Below are positions 47,053 through 57,001 of a stretch of 64,000 nucleotides of DNA, piece by piece (positions within the stretch are counted from its first letter, which is position 1; every line of letters starts with the position of its first letter). The DNA is taken from NCBI GenBank assembly GCA_905182525.1, contig CAJJBV010000001.1, forward strand, positions 310,001-374,000. Reading direction: 5' to 3'. The translations under genes were made by a program, and so were the position numbers. This stretch comes from Cryomorphaceae bacterium. Lineage in GTDB: Bacteria > Bacteroidota > Bacteroidia > Flavobacteriales_D > Parvicellaceae. A model generated the notes under the pieces. It worked only from the letters and a program-made list of their open reading frames with translations, ran no database searches and was not told the origin of the DNA.

Positions 47053-47060
47053 TATATTTG
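47053..47060 (+). promoter_or_regulatory. -7 promoter element (TATATTTG) of the ferric ABC transporter genes
   Basis: Exact TAnnTTTG directly next to the palindrome, 15 bases before ATG 47076. Its position shows that the in-frame TTG at 47058 lies inside the promoter and is not the start. Confidence 0.65.
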
Positions 47061-47075
47061 CAAATAAAAAAATCC

Positions 47076-48128
47076 ATGATTAGAATATGTACCATTTTAC
47101 TTTCATTTTTAATAATTACATCTTGTAGAAATGATGAGAATATTAATAATAAAGCTGAAGAAGAAAATAAAAAATCAGAATCACTAACTCTTTATACACA
47201 TCGTCACTACGATTCTGATAAAATGATATTTAAAAAATTTGAAGAACAGACTGGAATTAAAATTAATGTAGTAAAAGCAAATGCTGATGAGCTTATTCAA
47301 AAAATGGAATTGGAAGCAGATCAATCCCCTGCTGATTTATTAATAACAGTTGATGCAGGTCGTTTAGTTCGTGCTAAAAATAAAAACTTACTTCAGGCTG
47401 CTAATTCGGAATTATTATCTAAAGTAGTTCCTCAACATCTTAAAGATTCTGAAAACTATTGGTATGGACTAACTAAAAGAGCAAGGGTGATTGTTTATAG
47501 TAAAGAGAAAGTAAATCCAGAAGAATTAACCACATATGAAGATTTAATAAATGAAAAGTGGAGAAACAAATTACTGATACGATCTTCAAATAATATTTAC
47601 AACCAATCTTTAATGGCGTCTATTATTTCAAATAATGGGAAAGATTCTGCAAAGCTATGGGCTAATGGAATAGTTAAAAATTTTGCTAGATCTCCAAAAG
47701 GAAATGACAGGGATCAAGTGAAGGCAATATTAGCCGGAGAAGGTGAAATTGGAATTATCAATACATATTATCTAGGAAAACTTTTGAATTCTAAAGATTC
47801 TAGTGAAATTGCTGCAGGAGAATCGGTTGGTGTTTTTTTTCCAAACCAAAATGATAGAGGAACTCATATAAATATAAGCGGAATTGGAGTAGCAAAACAC
47901 TCTCTTAATAAAGATAATGCTGTTAAGTTTATAGAGTATTTAGTTACAAAAGAGGTTCAAGAAGTTTTTGCTAAAGCAAACTATGAATACCCTGTAAACC
48001 CCGAAGCTATTACTTCTGATTTATTAAAATCGTGGGGAGAATTTAAAGAAGACAAATTATCTTTAACTAAGCTAGGAGAGCTTAATAAAGAAGCTGTAAT
48101 TATATTTGATGAAGTAAAATGGCTATAG
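47076..48128 (+). CDS. Ferric iron ABC transporter, substrate-binding lipoprotein
   Basis: A 350-residue class II periplasmic binding protein of the FbpA/FutA/IdiA family. ATG 47076 gives a lipoprotein signal (MIRICTILLSFLIITSCRN). The mature protein starts LTLYTHRHYDSDKMIFKKFEEQTGIKI. It contains DLLITVDAGRLVRAKNK, YYLGKLLNS with the tandem tyrosines used for Fe(III), and FIEYLVTKEVQEVFAKANYEYPVNP, all typical of the family. It is anchored by lipid rather than free in the periplasm. It is the first gene of a three-gene transporter set behind an operator and promoter. Confidence 0.93.
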   Translation: MIRICTILLSFLIITSCRNDENINNKAEEENKKSESLTLYTHRHYDSDKMIFKKFEEQTGIKINVVKANADELIQKMELEADQSPADLLITVDAGRLVRAKNKNLLQAANSELLSKVVPQHLKDSENYWYGLTKRARVIVYSKEKVNPEELTTYEDLINEKWRNKLLIRSSNNIYNQSLMASIISNNGKDSAKLWANGIVKNFARSPKGNDRDQVKAILAGEGEIGIINTYYLGKLLNSKDSSEIAAGESVGVFFPNQNDRGTHINISGIGVAKHSLNKDNAVKFIEYLVTKEVQEVFAKANYEYPVNPEAITSDLLKSWGEFKEDKLSLTKLGELNKEAVIIFDEVKWL

Positions 48129-48150
48129 TTAAAAAAATAAGAACCAATAA

Positions 48151-49788
48151 ATGGTTTTAAAAATAAAACATCTTAAAAGAGATTTTAATAAATCATCACT
48201 TCTTATTGTTATTATTAGTCTACTATTAGCAATTCCTGTTTTTGCTATTTTAATTAGTTTATTTAAAGGAACTGGTGAAATGTGGGAACATATTACATCT
48301 TACTTTCTTATTGATTATATCCAAAACTCCATAATTCTTTTATTAGGCTCAGGAATAATATGCTTTGTAATTGGGACTTCATCTGCTTGGGTTGTATCTA
48401 GATATAAATTTAAAGGAAGAAAAATTATTGAATGGTTACTTTTCATGCCCCTTGCAATACCTTCTTACATTGTTGCCTATTCTTACGTTGGGTTATTTGG
48501 ATATGGAGGAAGTTTTATAAAATTTATAAATTATTTAGGGTTCAATAATATTGATAATATTGAAATGATGAATATTTACGGCTTGGTTTGGGTTTTAAGT
48601 TTTTCTCTTTATCCATATGTATATGCTAGTACAAGATTAATATTTCAAAGCTATCCAACTCGACTTAAAGATACTGCTTCACTACTTGGTGCTTCGAAAA
48701 ATAAATACTTTTTTAAAATTGCACTTCCTCTTGCCTCTCCTGCAATAATTGGTGGACTTTTCCTGGTATTTATGGAAGTTCTAAACGATTATGGAGCTGC
48801 TAAATATTATGGAATAAACACATTTACAACAGGAATCTTTAGAACATGGACAGCTCTTGAAGATCTTCAATCATCAATATATTTGTCTGCAATATTAGTT
48901 GTTTTAGTGTTTGTTTTAGTTTTAATCGTAAAGTGGCTTAGGGGCAGAAGATCTTATAATCTTAAAACTTATAATTCAAATGATCAAGATGAAATTTACA
49001 GGAAAGATTTAAAAGGTTTAAAAAAAATAATTTTCTTAACTATTGTTTTTGTTCCTATTTTATTTGGATTTTTATTTCCCTTTTTACAACTTATTATTTG
49101 GGGACTACAAACTTTTGAATCCATGTTTAATAGTGACTTATTAAATATTGGAATACAAACTCTTTTTTTAGGGCTTTCAACTTCAATAATTATAGTTTTT
49201 TTAGCTACTTCATTAATATATCTTTCAAAATGGAATTATTTAAAGCAATTAAATGTTACTTCAAAATTGGCCACCTTAGGCTATGTTATTCCTGGTGCAA
49301 TTATTGGAATTGGAGTTATAAAAAGTAGCCATTCTATTACAGAATATTTTAGTACCTACCACAATATTAAAATTGGGTATATTATATATAACAGCATACT
49401 AGTTTTGATTTATGCGTATGTATTTAGATTTATTGCCGTAGCATTTAATTCTATTGAATCAAATACTTTAAAACTTAGTAAATCACTTTCAGAATCTTCA
49501 AACCTACTTGGCTTTGGAAAAATTAAAACTTTTTTTAAAATTGATTTTCCTTTAATAAAAAATGCACTTTTGACTTCATTTATTTTAGTATTTATTGATG
49601 TTATTAAAGAATTACCACTAACACTAATTCTAAAACCATATAATTTAAGCACGTTGGCTATTAAAGCCTATGAATATGCAGAAGATGAAAGGGTAGCTGA
49701 AGCTGCATTACCAGCATTATTTTTGATATTTATTATTGGCAGTATGATATCTGTTGTAAATTATCGTTTCAAATTAAATAAATCATAA
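48151..49788 (+). CDS. Ferric iron ABC transporter, permease (fused two-domain FbpB type)
   Basis: A 545-residue inner-membrane protein with about twelve hydrophobic segments in two homologous halves. Each half has an EAA-type loop for the ATPase (DTASLLGASKNKYFFKIALPLASP and SSNLLGFGKIKTFFKIDFPLIK). This fused form is usual for Fe(III) transporters of the FbpB/SfuB family. Its start is 22 bases after the substrate-binding gene, and it is followed by the ATPase. Confidence 0.93.
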   Translation: MVLKIKHLKRDFNKSSLLIVIISLLLAIPVFAILISLFKGTGEMWEHITSYFLIDYIQNSIILLLGSGIICFVIGTSSAWVVSRYKFKGRKIIEWLLFMPLAIPSYIVAYSYVGLFGYGGSFIKFINYLGFNNIDNIEMMNIYGLVWVLSFSLYPYVYASTRLIFQSYPTRLKDTASLLGASKNKYFFKIALPLASPAIIGGLFLVFMEVLNDYGAAKYYGINTFTTGIFRTWTALEDLQSSIYLSAILVVLVFVLVLIVKWLRGRRSYNLKTYNSNDQDEIYRKDLKGLKKIIFLTIVFVPILFGFLFPFLQLIIWGLQTFESMFNSDLLNIGIQTLFLGLSTSIIIVFLATSLIYLSKWNYLKQLNVTSKLATLGYVIPGAIIGIGVIKSSHSITEYFSTYHNIKIGYIIYNSILVLIYAYVFRFIAVAFNSIESNTLKLSKSLSESSNLLGFGKIKTFFKIDFPLIKNALLTSFILVFIDVIKELPLTLILKPYNLSTLAIKAYEYAEDERVAEAALPALFLIFIIGSMISVVNYRFKLNKS

Positions 49789-49799
49789 ATAAGCTAATT

Positions 49800-50552
49800 A
49801 TGAAAATATTAGAAATTGAAAATTTATCTAAGTCTTATGAATCTAAACTAGAAGTTGTTTCCGATTGTAGTTTTAGTATTGAGTCTGGTAATATTTGTGC
49901 GATTGTTGGTGAAAGTGGAAGTGGTAAGTCAACATTATTTAGACTTATTGCTGGATTAGAAAGACCAGAAAAAGGTTCAATTAAAGTTAAAGAAAAAATA
50001 GTGAGCAATGATAAATTTATTGTAGCTCCTAAAAACAGAAATGTTGGACTTGTTTTCCAGGACTTTTCACTATTTCCTCATATGACTGTTAAAGAAAATA
50101 TAGAATTTGGGCTTGTTAAAAATAAGAATAAAAAAGTAGAGGAATTGTTAAAGATTATTAGAATGGAGAATTTCCTTAATAGGTATCCACATGAACTAAG
50201 TGGGGGACAACAACAAAGAGTATCATTAGCTAGATCATTGGCCCTAGACCCTTCCCTATTACTACTTGATGAACCCTTTAGTAATTTAGATACTGAATTA
50301 AAGTCAAAACTACGTAAAGATGTTAGAACCATAATTAAAGATATTGGAACATCATCAATTTTCATTACCCACGACATTCTAGATGCCTTAGATATTGCTG
50401 ATGAAATTATTTTTATGGACAATGGTAAAATAATTAGACAATGTAAAATTGAGGATATTTTTAAAGATGTCAAAAATGAAAAATTACTAAAAAGTATAAC
50501 AGAACTAAAATCAAATTCTGATTTAATTTTAAATGCTTTAAAAAACAAGTAA
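49800..50552 (+). CDS. Ferric iron ABC transporter, ATP-binding protein
   Basis: A 250-residue ABC ATPase with Walker A (VGESGSGKSTLFRL), Q-loop (VFQDFSLFPHMTV), signature (ELSGGQQQRVSLARSLA), Walker B (LLLLDEPFSNLD) and switch His (IFITHD). It is shorter than FbpC/PotA-type ATPases of about 350 residues because it lacks the C-terminal TOBE regulatory domain. Place and sequence make it the ATPase of the ferric transporter encoded just upstream. Confidence 0.93.
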   Translation: MKILEIENLSKSYESKLEVVSDCSFSIESGNICAIVGESGSGKSTLFRLIAGLERPEKGSIKVKEKIVSNDKFIVAPKNRNVGLVFQDFSLFPHMTVKENIEFGLVKNKNKKVEELLKIIRMENFLNRYPHELSGGQQQRVSLARSLALDPSLLLLDEPFSNLDTELKSKLRKDVRTIIKDIGTSSIFITHDILDALDIADEIIFMDNGKIIRQCKIEDIFKDVKNEKLLKSITELKSNSDLILNALKNK

Positions 50553-50716: not shown

Positions 50717-51885
50717 ATGAATAAACTCAATTTTAAACTTTTATTATCTTTTGCTCTTGTTGCGACAGTAATAAGTTGTAAAAAGAAAGGATGTACTGAT
50801 CCTTTGGCTTTAAATTATGATTCTAGTGCAGATAAAAACGAAGGATGTGAATACGAGTCAGGTATTACATATAATGTTCCATCTACTTATGTTTTTACAG
50901 ATGCAGCTGGAAACAATACTGTTTCTTATGGTGGACAAACTCAAAGAATGAATATGCTTTCAGAAATAGTTTCTTACTTAAAAACTGCTAACAATAGCAC
51001 AGCAATTCTAGACGGACAAAAGCTTAAAGATATGTACTCCAATTCTGGAACACCTGGTTGGACTGGAACATACGATGCTTCAAAGCAATTAAAAAGTAAA
51101 ACAGCTATGAGATTCCCCAAGTATTCAAGCATTATTTGAAGGATGGATGGATGCTGCAGCCGCAGCAACTCCAAGCAGTAATAATCAATATTTACAAGAT
51201 TCCAATGGACTAGAGTGGACTCAAATGATTGAAAAAGGTCTAATGAGTGCATGTTTTGTTAGTCAATTATCACAAAATTACCTTGAAAATATTGCTGATG
51301 ATGACAATACAGTAGCAGTTGATGCTTCTGCTGGGAAACATTATACTTTAATGGAGCACCACTGGGATGAAGCTTACGGTTACTTTCACTGAATGTTACT
51401 GCTTTTCCTGATACTGCCGAACAATTAGATTCTGGGGTAAATATGCTACACAGGCTTATTTAGAAAGTACTTTGGGTACTGCTACTGATATCTCTACGGC
51501 TTTTAGAACTGGTAGAGCAGCTTTAAGCGCTGGAAATATTACTCATGCTCTAGAACAAAAAGCTATTGTTTTTGAAGAAGTAAAAGACATGGTTGCAGGA
51601 ATGGCAATTCACTATTTAAAAGACGTGATTTCTAAAAAAAATGCAGGTACTTCAACCCAAGCAAAAATTAATCACAGTCTATCTGAAGCTTTAGCATTTA
51701 TAATGGGTATTCAGTTTGCTACAACTTCACCTGATACTCCATCTGCAAATGTTGTTGATTTAAATGCTAACATTGGAAACTTTACTTCTTTGGCTACTTT
51801 ACCTTCAAATGTCTCACTTCAAGAAATGATTGACGATATTGCTGCTGCAGCTGGATTTAGTGCTACGGAAGTTGCTGGTTTATAA
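50717..51885 (+). CDS. DUF4856 lipoprotein of the imelysin iron cluster (three frameshifts)
   Basis: ATG 50717 gives a lipoprotein signal (FKLLLSFALVATVISCKKK). A short Cys motif follows (GCTDPLALNYDSSADK, then CEYE). The DUF4856 domain begins YVFTDAAGNNTVSYGGQTQR. The frame is broken near 51115-51121 (extra base), 51384-51388 (missing base) and 51424-51428 (missing base). The joined sequence reads FEGWMDAAAAATPSSN, HYTLMEHHWDEAYGYF, LNVTAFPDTAEQL, WGKYATQAYLEST and FRTGRAALSAGNI, about 389 residues. DUF4856 proteins occur beside imelysins in Bacteroidota iron loci, and I infer the same role here. The Cys motif is shared with the next gene. The real gene is probably intact. Confidence 0.85.
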
Positions 51886-51913
51886 TAATTCTTGTTTAAC
51901 TAAATAATTAATT

Positions 51914-51953
51914 ATAATCACTGGATGTAATTAATCCAGTGATTATTTATTTT
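51914..51953 (+). terminator. Hairpin terminator between the DUF4856 and imelysin genes
   Basis: A 13-bp stem (ATAATCACTGGAT with ATCCAGTGATTAT), a 7-base loop and a T-rich tail. No new promoter is obvious between it and the imelysin ATG 13 bases later. It may therefore act as a partial terminator or attenuator that lowers downstream expression. Confidence 0.7.
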
Positions 51954-51965
51954 AAATTTACGGAT

Positions 51966-53158
51966 ATGATTAAGTCATTTTTAAAAATATTTTTACCAAC
52001 TACTTTATTGCTTTTTAGTGGATGCTCTAAAAAAGGTTGTAAAGATCCTAATGCTATTAATTATGACTCATCTGCTAAAAAAGATAATAACAGCTGTTTA
52101 TACGAAGAATTTGATAAAGAAGTTTTATTATCTAATATTACCAATAATTATATAATTCCATCATATAACCAGTACAATTTAAATTTAAAATCTTTAGATA
52201 GCTCAATTAAAGAATTCACTCTACAGCCGACAGTTTCAGGACTTTCTAAAGTTAGAAATTCATGGCATAATGCTCTTTTATCATGGCAGGATGTGTCTTT
52301 TATCGATTTTGGGCCTTCTACTCTTATAATACTTAAAACACAAACAAATACATTCCCAGCAGACACAGTTCAAATAGATGAAAATATTTCAAATGGCAAC
52401 TGGAATTTCAATAGCATTAATAGTATAGATATTAAAGGGTTTCAAGCATTGGATTACTTAATTAATACAAAGAGGACTTTAACAGAATCTCAGAGAGTGA
52501 CATTTTTATACTAGGGACTCTCAAAACTGCAATAGATTACTTAAATGCTATTTCGGATGAGTTAGTAAACCACATACAGCCTTATGTTGTGCGATGATTG
52601 GGCCACTTACAAAGATGAATTTCATTTCTGATTTTGCAACCACCTGCTCAGTGGTAGTTCTGTAAGTGATATTGATTAATGCTATGTGTTTACATTACGA
52701 GTTTTTTGTTAGAAGAGGGAAAATTAGGTCTTCCCTTGGGAGTATTTGATCGGTTTTTCACAACTTGATCCACTGCCTGGACTTAGTAGAGTGCTACCAC
52801 TATGGTTCTTCTCTTGACCATTTGCAATAAGATCAGTTGGATCTTTACAAAAATATATTAACGGAATTCATTACTCTTCTTCACGAAAACGGGATTGGTC
52901 TTAGACGACTACATGAATTTTGTAAATGCTACAAGTAATAGCGAAAATTTATCAGCTGTTGTTAACAGCCAGATAGACGATATTGTAATTAAACTTAATA
53001 ATCTTGAATGATCCATTTAGTTCGGAACTCTTAAATAATAAAACTCCAAGTTCAAACTACATATGAATCTATGCAAAATCTTGTACCCTATGTTAAAGTT
53101 GATATGACTTCTGCTTTGGGAGTCTCTAATTACATATGCAGATAACGACGGCGATTAG
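51966..53158 (+). CDS. Imelysin family (ICMP-like) lipoprotein, heavily frameshifted
   Basis: ATG 51966 gives a lipoprotein signal (FLPTTLLLFSGCSKK) and then the Cys motif GCKDPNAINYDSSAKK. The imelysin domain follows: LSNITNNYIIPSYNQYN, VRNSWHNALLSWQDVSFIDFGPS and IDIKGFQALDYLI (the GxHxxE-equivalent region reads GFQALDY). From 52505 the frame breaks about 13 times, yet the pieces read on: TLKTAIDYLNAISDEL, DDWATYKDEF, LHYEFFVRRGK, LDDYMNFVNA and TYESMQNLVPYVKVDMTSALGVS. The last piece is ITYADNDGD with stop 53158. Imelysins are iron-regulated periplasmic or outer-membrane lipoproteins. The dense indels look like local sequence error rather than decay. Repaired length is about 397 residues. 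Confidence 0.8.
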
Positions 53159-53161
53159 TAA

Positions 53162-54540
53162 GTGGTAAAACACATTTCAGATACAAACAGTAAATATTGC
53201 GCCGCTTGTAGTTTTTAGAATCATTTTTGGTTCTAATGATGTTCGCAAGTACTTTAAGATTCATTCTTAAAGGGTGGATAAATGACTTTTATGTAACACC
53301 AAAATATTATTTCACTTATTACGGTTTTGATTGGGTAAAACCTCTTGAAGAAAATAGTATGTATATACTTTTTGGAATATTATTACTAAGTTCATTATTA
53401 ATAGCTTTTGGTCTTTTTCTATAGAATAAGTATTGTATTATTTTTCTTGGTATTCACCTACATTGAACTCATTGACAAAACCAATTATCTAAATCATTAC
53501 TACTTCATAAGTTTAATGAGTTTTATACTTATATTCTTACCACTAAATAGACATTTTTCAATAGATGTTTATTTTCGAATATGCAAAGAGAAAACAAAGG
53601 TTCCATCATGGACAATTAATTTTATAAAATTACAAATTGCATTTGTTTATATTTTTGCAGGGATTTCAAAACTTAATTATGATTGGCTTATCGAGGCTCA
53701 GCCATTAATAAACTGGTTAAAACATCAATCAGATTTTCCAATAATTGGAAGTTTACTTTTAAATGATATTACGGCTTATTTATTTAGTTGGGGTGGTGCA
53801 ATTTTCGACTTGTTTATAGTATTTATTCTCATATCTAAAAGATGGAGAATCTATGGGTATATACTAGTTGTTATTTTTCATATTATGACTTCTTTAATGT
53901 TTCCAATTGGTGTTTTTCCACTGGTAATGATAGGAAGTACTTTAATATTCTTCTCTGAAAATTTTCACATTAAAATAATTTCATCTTATTTCCATTTTCA
54001 CTTTAAAATTGAATGAATTAAAAACTGAAAATACATACAATCTAAAAAGTTCATTTAAACCCTTTTACAAGTTGCTATTTGTTTCTTTTTTTATTCTTCA
54101 ATTAGTTTTACCACTAAGATATTTATTGTATCCAGGAAAACTTATTTTGGACTGAGCAAGGTTATAGATTTAGTTGGAGAGTGATGTTAATTGAAAAAGC
54201 AGGATATGCTCAATTTTATATTCATGAACCTGTAAAGGATAGAAAAATGTTAGTTGAAAATAGAAATTATTTAACACCTCAACAAGAAAAAATGATGGCT
54301 ACACAGCCCGACATGATTCTTCAATTTGCTCATCATATAAGTAATACATTTAAAGATTCCATAATTATCGAAAGAAATGGTGAAATCATTAATTTAGGGA
54401 AATCGCCAAAAGTTACTGCTGATATTAAAGTAAGTTTATTCAACAAAGGAAGTAGATCATTCATAGATAATAACATTAATTTAACTGGAGAAAAAAGAGG
54501 TTTTTCTAATAAATCATGGATACTAACTTATGAAGATTAA
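53162..54540 (+). CDS. HTTM domain membrane protein (vitamin K gamma-carboxylase-like), frameshifted
   Basis: A multi-span membrane protein. The N-terminal VNIAPLVVFRIIFG and MMFASTLRFILKGWINDFYVTPKYYFTYYGFDWVKPL are typical of HTTM proteins, distant homologues of vitamin K-dependent gamma-carboxylase. So is the LQIAFVYIFAGISKLNYDW block and the C-terminal YRFSWRVML-like region (RVMLIEKAGYAQFYI). Frame breaks are near 53230, 53417, 54012 and 54150. The start is unresolved; GTG 53162 is one option. In Bacteroidota this family sits between imelysin and a TonB receptor in iron loci, as here. Its chemical role there is unknown. The end overlaps the receptor start by 11 bases. Confidence 0.82.
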
Positions 54541-57001
54541 ACTCCTAATAATAATATCACTTTGCACCATTAAAGGATTTACTCAGACAGGGAAAATATC
54601 TGGAGTTATTTTAGACGAAAATAAAGATCCTATACCTTACACCACCGTATTTTTAAAAAATATTGACAAGGTTATCTACACTAATGAGTATGGGTTTTTT
54701 TCTACTCCTAAACTAAATTACAAAAGTTATATTATTGAATATTCGTCAGTTGGTTATCAAAAAATAATTGACACAATTAACCTAAACAAACCTTAATTAA
54801 AATTGATAAAAAGACACTAAAAGAAAGGAATATTAACCTTCAGGAGTTTGAATTTGTTGAACAACAAAAATTTAATATTAGAAAATTAAGAGCAATTGAA
54901 GGTGTTATGATTACTCAAGGAAAAAAAACTGAAGCTATTAATGTTGAAAATACAGACGCTAATAAAGCAACGAATCAAAGTAGACAAATTTATGCAAAAA
55001 TACCTGGGCTAAATATTTGGGAAAGTGATGGTGCAGGAATTCAACTAGGTTTAGGAGGAAGAGGGCTAAACCCAAGTAGAACTTCGAACTTCAATACAAG
55101 ACAAAATGGATATGATATTAGCGCTGATGCGTTAGGATATCCTGAAAGCTACTATACTCCCCCATCTGAAGCTATTGATGAAATTCAACTTATAAGAGGT
55201 GCTGCATCTCTCCAATTTGGACCACAGTTTGGAGGACTTTTAAATTTCAAACTTAAAGAAGGTCATCCAAACAAAAAAATAGAACTTGTAGCTAGACATA
55301 CAATTGGTTCCTATGGTTTAAATAATACATTTTTAAGTATAAGTGGAGCTTCTAAAAATTGGAGTTATTATAGTTATGGAAATTATAAAATTGGAGACGA
55401 CTGGAGACCAAACTCAAGTTTTGATCTTAAAAATGGATATATAAAAGTCAAAAACAAGATAAATAATCAATCTTTTATAAGTATTGAGGTTACAAAAATG
55501 AGTTATTTAGCCCAACAACCAGGTGGATTAACAGACAAACAATTTTTGACAAAACCAGATTCATCAGTTAGAGAAAGAAACTGGTTCAAGGTGGATTGGA
55601 ATTTAGCAGCATTACAATACGATTACGAATTTAATTCCAATACCAAGTTTAATACTCGAACTTTTGGATTAATAGCTTCTAGAGAAGCTGTAGGAAATTT
55701 AGATAAACCATTTTATGCTGATTTTATGGAAAAAAGAAATGTTATTTCAGGACAATTTAAAAATATTGGAAACGAAACAAGATTAATTCATTTATATGAA
55801 ATTGGAAGTTCTGAGTAAAAACCCATGTGCAATACTTATAGGCTCAAGATTATACAGAGGATATAATAATAATATTCAAGCAAATGGTAATAATTTAAAC
55901 ACCCCTGACTTTAATTTCACTGAGGACGTCATAAATATGAACGATTCTTCACTAAGTGAAGCAACAAACTACAAATTTCCAAGTTTAAATATTGCTTTAT
56001 TTGGAGAAAATATTTTCAATCTAAACAATAAATTAAGCTTAACACCTGGATTTAGATTTGAACACATTTCTACATCATCTGATGGTGTTTTTAGAAGACA
56101 AGAACTTGATAATGCTAATAATATAATCTTTGATTCTATTTATAGTGAAAATGATAAACAATCACGTGAATTTATAATTCTTGGATTGGGTGTGAACTAT
56201 AAATTAAAAGAGAAAATAGAATGTTATGCCAATTTTTCTCAAAACTACAGAAGTATTAATTTTTCTGATATGCAAATCACAAATCCTAACTTCCAAATTA
56301 ACCCTGAATTAAAGGATGAAAGAGGATATAATTTTGATTTAGGAATTAGAGGAAGTAAAAGCAATAAATTATATTTTGATGCATCATTGTATTATTTATT
56401 TTATAACAATAGAATTGGAACTGTATGGGTAACTCAAAATAACATTTCTAATTTTAATAATCTTCCTCAAACTACAGCACCTTACTTTCAGTTAAGAACT
56501 AATGTTTCACAGTCCAGAACAATGGGATACGAAATGATGATTGAAACAGATTGGTGGAAAATATTAATTAACGAAAATTCGAATAGTAAACTAAGTACTT
56601 TTATAAATTTCTCTTTCAATGATGCAAAATATATTGATTCCGATGAACCAGCGTATAATAATAAAAAAGTAGAGTTGGTCCCTCCTATTTCAATAAAAAG
56701 TGGTTTGTCAATTGGAAATGAAAAATATTCTCTATCCTACCAATTTAGCTATACCAAAGAACATTTTTCGGATGCTACTAATTCAGAAAGTCATCCACAT
56801 GGAATTGTAGGTCTTATTCCAACTTATTATATAATGGACTTTTCCGGAAAAGTTAGTATTAAAAAAATGCAGGTTGAATTTGGAATTAATAATATTACTA
56901 ATATTAATTACTTTACAAGGAGAGCAACCGGTTATCCTGGACCTGGAATAATTCCATCCATGCCTAGGAATTTCTACCTTTGTATTCAAATTAAAATTTA
57001 A
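54530..57001 (+). CDS. TonB-dependent receptor, FecA-like (frameshifted)
   Basis: ATG 54530 gives a signal peptide (KLLIIISLCTIKGFTQ). A CarboxypepD_reg domain (GKISGVILDENKDPIPYTT) and the plug domain follow (QIYAKIPGLNIWESDGAGIQ, LGGRGLNPSRTS, IDEIQLIRGAASLQFGPQFGG). The 22-strand barrel ends in a C-terminal aromatic region (RNFYLCIQIKI). It resembles Fe(III)-dicitrate/siderophore receptors of the FecA type. Frame breaks occur near 54790 and at 55815-55845 (one or two). Repaired length is about 823 residues. It belongs to the imelysin-HTTM iron cluster and overlaps the HTTM gene. The actual iron ligand is unknown. Confidence 0.87.

Follow-up and report, generated by a model that had tools for sequence, protein, structure and literature searches.

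Two adjacent lipoproteins of the window, the 64,000-nucleotide stretch of DNA that was analysed, carry the same small two-cysteine module (the tag) behind their lipid anchor, and many unrelated lipoproteins of the same bacterial family are capped by it. The module sits at the site where homologues usually have an acidic lipoprotein export signal (LES, of the C-x-K-[DE]2 type), and its presence is nearly reciprocal to that of the LES in four protein families. In our preferred interpretation, which is given a probability of roughly 0.48, the tag is a mobile, modular N-terminal cap that replaces the LES on surface lipoproteins, whose export to the surface is predicted from sequence. The window comes from an uncultured Flavobacteriales lineage, which is probably marine going by the names of related records.

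The two lipoproteins and their neighbourhood are arranged as follows.

50717..50779, + strand: signal peptide of the DUF4856 lipoprotein, ending in the lipobox and the lipid-anchor Cys at 50777-50779 (sequence reading, lipobox scan)
50780..50857, + strand: tag 1, on DUF4856, with a Lys-rich lead, the module Cys at 50792 and a closing Cys-x-Tyr (sequence, tag profile)
50717..51885, + strand: DUF4856 (PF16148) gene in three frames, 50717-51139, 51111-51392 and 51412-51885 (ORFs, Pfam)
51966..52025, + strand: signal peptide of the imelysin lipoprotein with the lipid-anchor Cys at 52023-52025 (sequence reading)
52026..52109, + strand: tag 2, on imelysin (alignment, tag profile)
51966..~53145, + strand: imelysin (Peptidase_M75) gene, frame 1 open to 52514 and the remainder in several frames (ORFs, Pfam); the end was placed by eye, from the C-terminal stretch and the consensus of relatives
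53212..54540, + strand: HTTM / vitamin-K-dependent gamma-carboxylase-like membrane protein, broken frames, conserved neighbour
54530..57001, + strand: TonB-dependent receptor, broken frames, conserved neighbour
47058..50552, + strand: ABC importer, with a binding lipoprotein (acidic start CRNDEN, no tag), a permease and an ATPase

The mature DUF4856 protein and the mature imelysin both begin with Cys-x-K-K-G-C-x-D-P-x-A-x-N-Y-D-S-S-A...C-x-Y, and 18 of 25 residues are identical between the two tags. This confirms the claim of the initial annotation that both proteins share one element just past the lipidated Cys. Its second claim, that the domains behind the element are unrelated, was upheld at the level of sequence: hhalign of the relatives' alignments found no relation between the DUF4856 and imelysin domains (probability 0.4%), and common descent of the host domains was discarded. 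The tag lies outside both Pfam matches, each of which exceeds its gathering cut-off. PF16148 matched the three DUF4856 pieces with E 4.7e-8, 9.8e-17 and 1.3e-12 (32.8, 61.4 and 47.9 bits; cut-off 22.3), and PF09375 matched the N-terminal piece of the imelysin with E 1.1e-11 (45.2 bits; cut-off 23.5). A weak NCBIfam match of a DUF4856 piece to an FEA1-related lipoprotein was also recorded (E 0.0015, 17.3 bits vs a cut-off of 250). At the DNA level, C-x-D-P-x-A-x-N-Y has just two perfect matches in the window; allowing up to two mismatches raises this to three, whereas 100 shuffles averaged 0.25 and a single one of them reached three.

The DUF4856 and imelysin genes are frameshifted in the assembly, while most relatives have them as single ORFs of ~385–430 aa. 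Broken frames are therefore atypical of these genes, and assembly indels would be the likeliest cause. Frameshifts run across the DUF4856, imelysin, HTTM and TonB-receptor genes (50717-57001), which are intact in most relatives. The arrangement of the locus is conserved: among 80 named loci, imelysin comes after DUF4856 in 71 of the 72 with room, and a TonB receptor was present in 57 of 58 with room. The ABC importer was found upstream in 4/62 loci only and is not a general part of the DUF4856-imelysin locus; its substrate is unsettled, the matches falling to several importer families with the best ones below their cut-offs. In the window, the gene that separates imelysin from the TonB receptor encodes a protein matching HTTM and a lumenal domain (E 2.6e-56 and 1.9e-37); of the 63 loci with room (set L058-L137), 54 have an HTTM/carboxylase-like gene downstream of DUF4856. 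Within the loci, the DUF4856 and imelysin matches of L058 (uncultured Flavobacteriales bacterium) are the same as those of G023, which belongs to the window's genus, and those of L065 (MED-G20) are the same as those of G021.

A genome census ruled out that the tag is confined to the DUF4856/imelysin pair. With a profile built from nine tags, 12 copies were detected on unrelated lipoproteins of the window's genome, the lipobox Cys standing directly before the tag in 12/12 by inspection and in 11/12 by the automatic rule. All 39 genomes of the family contain the tag, in 2–18 copies each, and 17 of the 198 genomes of an even phylum sample gave a match, the window's own included. The census recovered 70 of 74 earlier tag matches. 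Distinct tagged ORFs were gathered from the window's genome, nine relatives and the best family hits; in 102 of these 108, a simple rule placed the tag directly after the lipobox Cys. Within these 102, Lys is found at +3 in 91 and both module cysteines, the only conserved ones inside the module, are kept in 97–100%. The lead between the lipidated Cys and the module measures 3–7 residues, mostly x-K-x-G, and the module has the consensus C-T-D-P-x-A-x-N-Y-x-x-x-A-x-K-D-D-G-S-C-x-Y. The initial annotation had pointed out a resemblance to a CTDPxAxNYxxxAxxxDGSCxY motif; in sequence, the tag is clearly the same module as the GCTDPxAxNYxxxAxxDDGSCxY repeats of large or Sec-exported Bacteroidota proteins. 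In the literature collection that was searched for tag strings, the one paper returned was on alpha-synuclein and, judging from title and abstract, had no relation to the tag.

By sequence, the protein bodies that follow the tag form 30 clusters; in 28 the tag adjoins the lipid anchor (exceptions L203 and L280). Carriers comprise DUF4856, imelysin, GH16, PKD, MbnP, di-haem peroxidase, Omp28, Lcl_C, Ig-like, Lamin tail, beta-helix and unknown proteins; 20 cluster representatives were scanned for this list of domains, and a separate tagged M75 protein of G031 (L205) was counted within the imelysins. Such a range of hosts speaks against a tag specific to the pair or to iron. Two tandem module copies stand behind the anchor in L262, L152, L158, L208, L216, L256 and L269. 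A neighbouring tagged pair of MbnP and a di-haem cytochrome c peroxidase (MauG type) recurs in L210 (G004), L257 (G031) and L151 (G032).

According to the consulted parts of Lauber et al. (2016; PMC5080379), the LES of Bacteroidota surface lipoproteins is K-[DE]2 or an SDDDD-like acidic stretch, and when tested experimentally it needs acidic residues near +4/+5. In PMC12578637, surface lipoproteins are predicted by a rule that asks for at least two acidic residues among the first six behind the anchor. Untagged DUF4856 and imelysin homologues mostly have an acidic start, such as CKKEDPEEK, CSKDEEET or CKEDKDEL. In these two protein families the rule was passed by 48 of 53 untagged vs 3 of 54 tagged proteins (Fisher p 7e-21, relatedness ignored). 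The initial annotation had listed sorting to a common surface complex among the possible roles; of these, sorting is still the most favoured, in the broader sense of a tag that would replace the acidic export signal. Among the 102 anchor-proximal tagged ORFs, 8 pass the rule and 94 fail it. For the 80 named loci, whose selection depended in part on the tag, it was passed by 2/79 tagged DUF4856 proteins and 0/25 tagged imelysins vs 1/1 and 33/51 untagged ones; the contrast persists but is weaker for imelysin.

The same swap was seen in two further protein families, where the LES was present in 40/50 untagged vs 2/18 tagged MbnP proteins and in 26/29 untagged vs 0/13 tagged Omp28 proteins; these figures are contrasts and not frequencies, since tag searches supplied many of the tagged rows and the untagged ones were drawn from the Pfam matches listed, 30 loci per protein family together with 40 and 20 hand-picked stretches. 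In all, 18 rows were excluded for want of a recognised lipobox. One Omp28 row that had scored as tagged and LES-bearing (L345) was dropped, its match being at residue 328 inside a 687-aa protein, and one ORF (L031 318-980) was kept as tagged Omp28-like despite a weak profile match (E 1.9e-5) and omitted from the Omp28 tree. Four lipoproteins (L280 and L282) have the module displaced to 15–38 residues from the anchor, and all four keep an LES (CRKEDPP, CKKSEEPEP, CKKEDDTDG and CKKEEPEM); as they belong to one cluster, they count once.

Over the four trees the tag state changed twelve times, with three changes on the DUF4856 tree (54 rows) and three on the imelysin tree (99 rows), the latter without L077, a truncated ORF whose untagged state is an artefact. 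Nine independent pairs were available on well-supported branches (2+2+4+1). On average, the LES went opposite to the tag in ~5.7 of the nine (1.0+1.4+2.4+0.9), the same way in ~0 and showed no difference in ~3.3. In a sign test no single tree was significant, the independent contrasts being few.

The tag resembles the LES in its place after the lipid Cys, in the Lys at +3 and in its hosts, most untagged homologues in the four protein families having the LES there. It differs in being a conserved two-Cys module of ~23 residues that takes the place of most acidic residues, whereas the LES is short and acidic. Most tagged proteins are without acidic residues near +4/+5, so that classical surface display is not predicted for them, which counts against a stand-in for the LES. 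As a replacement, the module would most likely do the job of the LES, namely allow outer-membrane lipoproteins that cooperate with TonB receptors and with glycan systems to be displayed on the surface. The gene neighbourhood favours this: a TonB plug domain is found within 8 kb of 15 of the 39 tag clusters of five genomes, where at most 4.7 would be expected in a comparison that covered tagged lipoproteins only, and in the own genome two tagged proteins lie beside a SusD-like protein and a TonB plug (L288). The signal would perhaps be folded and closed by a disulfide, which would bring the DDGSC-x-Y end back beside the anchor, and the module may double as a stiff spacer. A bolder version takes the module as a second class of lipoprotein export signal, folded, disulfide-closed, LES-replacing and movable between unrelated lipoproteins in a marine Bacteroidota lineage; we regard this as conceivable and hold it with considerable doubt. 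For the window, it is proposed that DUF4856 and imelysin owe their tags to a shared role as surface partners of the TonB receptor encoded next to them, and not to docking with each other through the tag.

Predicted models (AlphaFold) for L058 had a pLDDT of 90.6 for imelysin and 93.1 for DUF4856, with moderate confidence in the tag (63–69 on imelysin, 75–85 on DUF4856). Residues 2–4 and 26–28 of the imelysin model are short strands, by which the tag may fold back onto its lead. This model matches known imelysin structures (4ecg, E 2.8e-10). For DUF4856 no clear structural relative was found: Foldseek gave no match at E <= 0.001, and the best hits of a second aligner were helical bundles (Z 8.1). 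The tag profile searched against the PDB hit perforin-2/MPEG1 (6u2j) over positions 3–25 with E 5.8e-6, and MPEG1 entries were the only matches up to E 10. The matched segment is named EGF-like in the consulted parts of PMC6989145 and PMC7593815, and a term search of the paper on 6u2j (PMC6753088) returned no passage on an EGF-like segment.

This likeness bears on a purely structural reading, by which the cap would be a rigid spacer or a protease-resistant N-terminal plug with no part in sorting, and the LES would have been lost since export needs another feature or none. In the consulted part of PMC6989145 the truncated EGF-like hinge of perforin-2 has a structural role; it is an internal hinge between the domains of an animal immune pore protein, and the likeness is one of sequence profiles. 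The distribution of the module outside the family counts for both readings: the settings there are of an extracellular type, in line with a cap that stands in for the LES, and the module's place at the mature N-termini of Sec-exported non-lipoproteins and in tandem arrays within large proteins suits a structural one. Across the 26 loci examined, most copies are internal to large proteins, tandem, or preceded by an ordinary signal peptide, and they lack the C-x-K lead; in the window's family the module is nearly always a lipoprotein cap. One large protein (L183) contains 20 copies, four of the 26 loci (L170, L176, L178 and L187) resemble lipoprotein caps by eye, and one of the Sec-exported module proteins scanned has a type IX sorting tail. 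Proteins of ~330 aa from another family of the class (L171-L173, L175, L177 and L180) have one module after an ordinary signal peptide, and a scan of L171 found no Pfam domain.

As the same module also caps secreted proteins that are not lipidated, a structural role without sorting has to be taken seriously. A share of the untagged homologues lacks the LES as well (10/50 MbnP, 3/29 Omp28, 5/37 imelysins of the Pfam set and 18/51 imelysins of the named loci), which also speaks for it. A structural cap leaves unexplained why the LES is mostly kept where the module is missing or displaced, yet rare where the module abuts the anchor. We consider this reading rather unlikely, though it is the strongest competitor of a cap that stands in for the LES.

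A cap that retains its proteins is improbable. It would leave tagged lipoproteins facing the periplasm, the LES having been lost as surface display was given up. The low pass rate of tagged proteins under the published rule (8 of 102) does fit with retention. Against this, parallel relocation would be required in at least four protein families, and the tag is also found in a glycan-type locus of the own genome (L288, C1:250500-267500). This locus encodes a TonB plug, a SusD-like protein, PKD- and GH16-cluster proteins and a GH3-like lipoprotein, the SusD-like and GH3-like proteins having been named by eye, and only the PKD- and GH16-cluster proteins are tagged. GH16 and PKD proteins of such glycan loci have a surface role, and the known relatives of the two tagged proteins beside the SusD-like protein act outside. 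We take the locus to recall the laminarin loci of marine Bacteroidota. Its SusD-like protein (CKKFLELDPP) is untagged and has a single acidic residue among the first six behind the anchor; as in the untagged homologues above, an LES can thus be missing where there is no tag.

Docking specific to the pair, in which the tag would assemble the two proteins either on a common TonB receptor or directly on one another, was weighed with a survey of the tag in pairs. A PF16148 search of 150 genomes of the order gave 57 with DUF4856. The DUF4856 protein was tagged in 41 of the 57 (the window and 40/56 loci), in 19/19 within the family (18 loci and the window) and in 22/38 loci outside. The adjacent imelysin was tagged in only 14 of 51 scored loci, the window being left out of this count, with 13/15 in the family vs 1/36 outside (3 and 2 loci unscored). 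These frequencies are from Pfam searches; the DUF4856 counts of the named loci (79/80 tagged) are biased, because the search pattern itself contained the tag, and were not used as frequencies. The initial annotation had tied a common role to a link with iron loci and to presence in most pairs. Unrelated, non-iron carriers were found, and absence from most pairs applies to imelysin but not to DUF4856. No tagged imelysin beside an untagged DUF4856 was met in the surveyed loci, and the reverse arrangement was common. A tagged imelysin on a long, unsure branch apart from the window's clade (L112) also has a tagged DUF4856 neighbour, which favours docking, as does the double tagging in the window and in most family loci.

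The likeness of the two tags points in the same direction, if faintly. The pair shares 18 identities in the window's genome, the highest of 66 tag pairs with no other higher or equal; 16 in G020, tied highest of 55 (5 equal); and 18 in G012, second of 28 (1 higher, 3 equal). In G017 it is ordinary with 15 among 78 (14 higher, 11 equal), and in the other three genomes the pair stands at most one residue above the next. The tags compared numbered 12, 11, 8 and 13 vs 12, 13, 10 and 18 matches listed (window's genome, G020, G012 and G017). Over 25 named loci with both proteins tagged, the mean was 15.4 identities within a locus vs 14.3 across loci, a value reached in 1 of 5000 shuffles, with shared ancestry not removed. 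This leaves a weak link between the DUF4856 and imelysin tags, which might stem from copying of the tag from one neighbour to the other, from common descent or from a partner that both proteins share. The common docking first suggested thus keeps the slightly greater likeness within loci in its favour, but the tag is found on many unrelated lipoproteins, and outside the family imelysin is untagged in most loci with a tagged DUF4856. A docking tag or an iron tag is unlikely, and pair-specific docking is a shade less probable than retention. Least probable of all is a metal- or calcium-binding mini-domain (D-D-G-S-C and N-Y-D loops) serving the chemistry of each host, for which conserved Asp/Asn positions and several metal-related carriers (imelysin, MbnP, di-haem peroxidase) might speak, but the GH16, PKD, Ig-like, Lamin tail and beta-helix carriers are not metal-related.

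The mechanism that flips Bacteroidota lipoproteins to the surface is described as an open question in the consulted part of PMC12578637. If the cap works like the LES, the acidic rule misses a class of surface lipoproteins in these bacteria, whose 39 family genomes have 2–18 tag copies apiece. LES-or-cap states on homologous proteins would then offer a clean handle on what the export machinery recognises.
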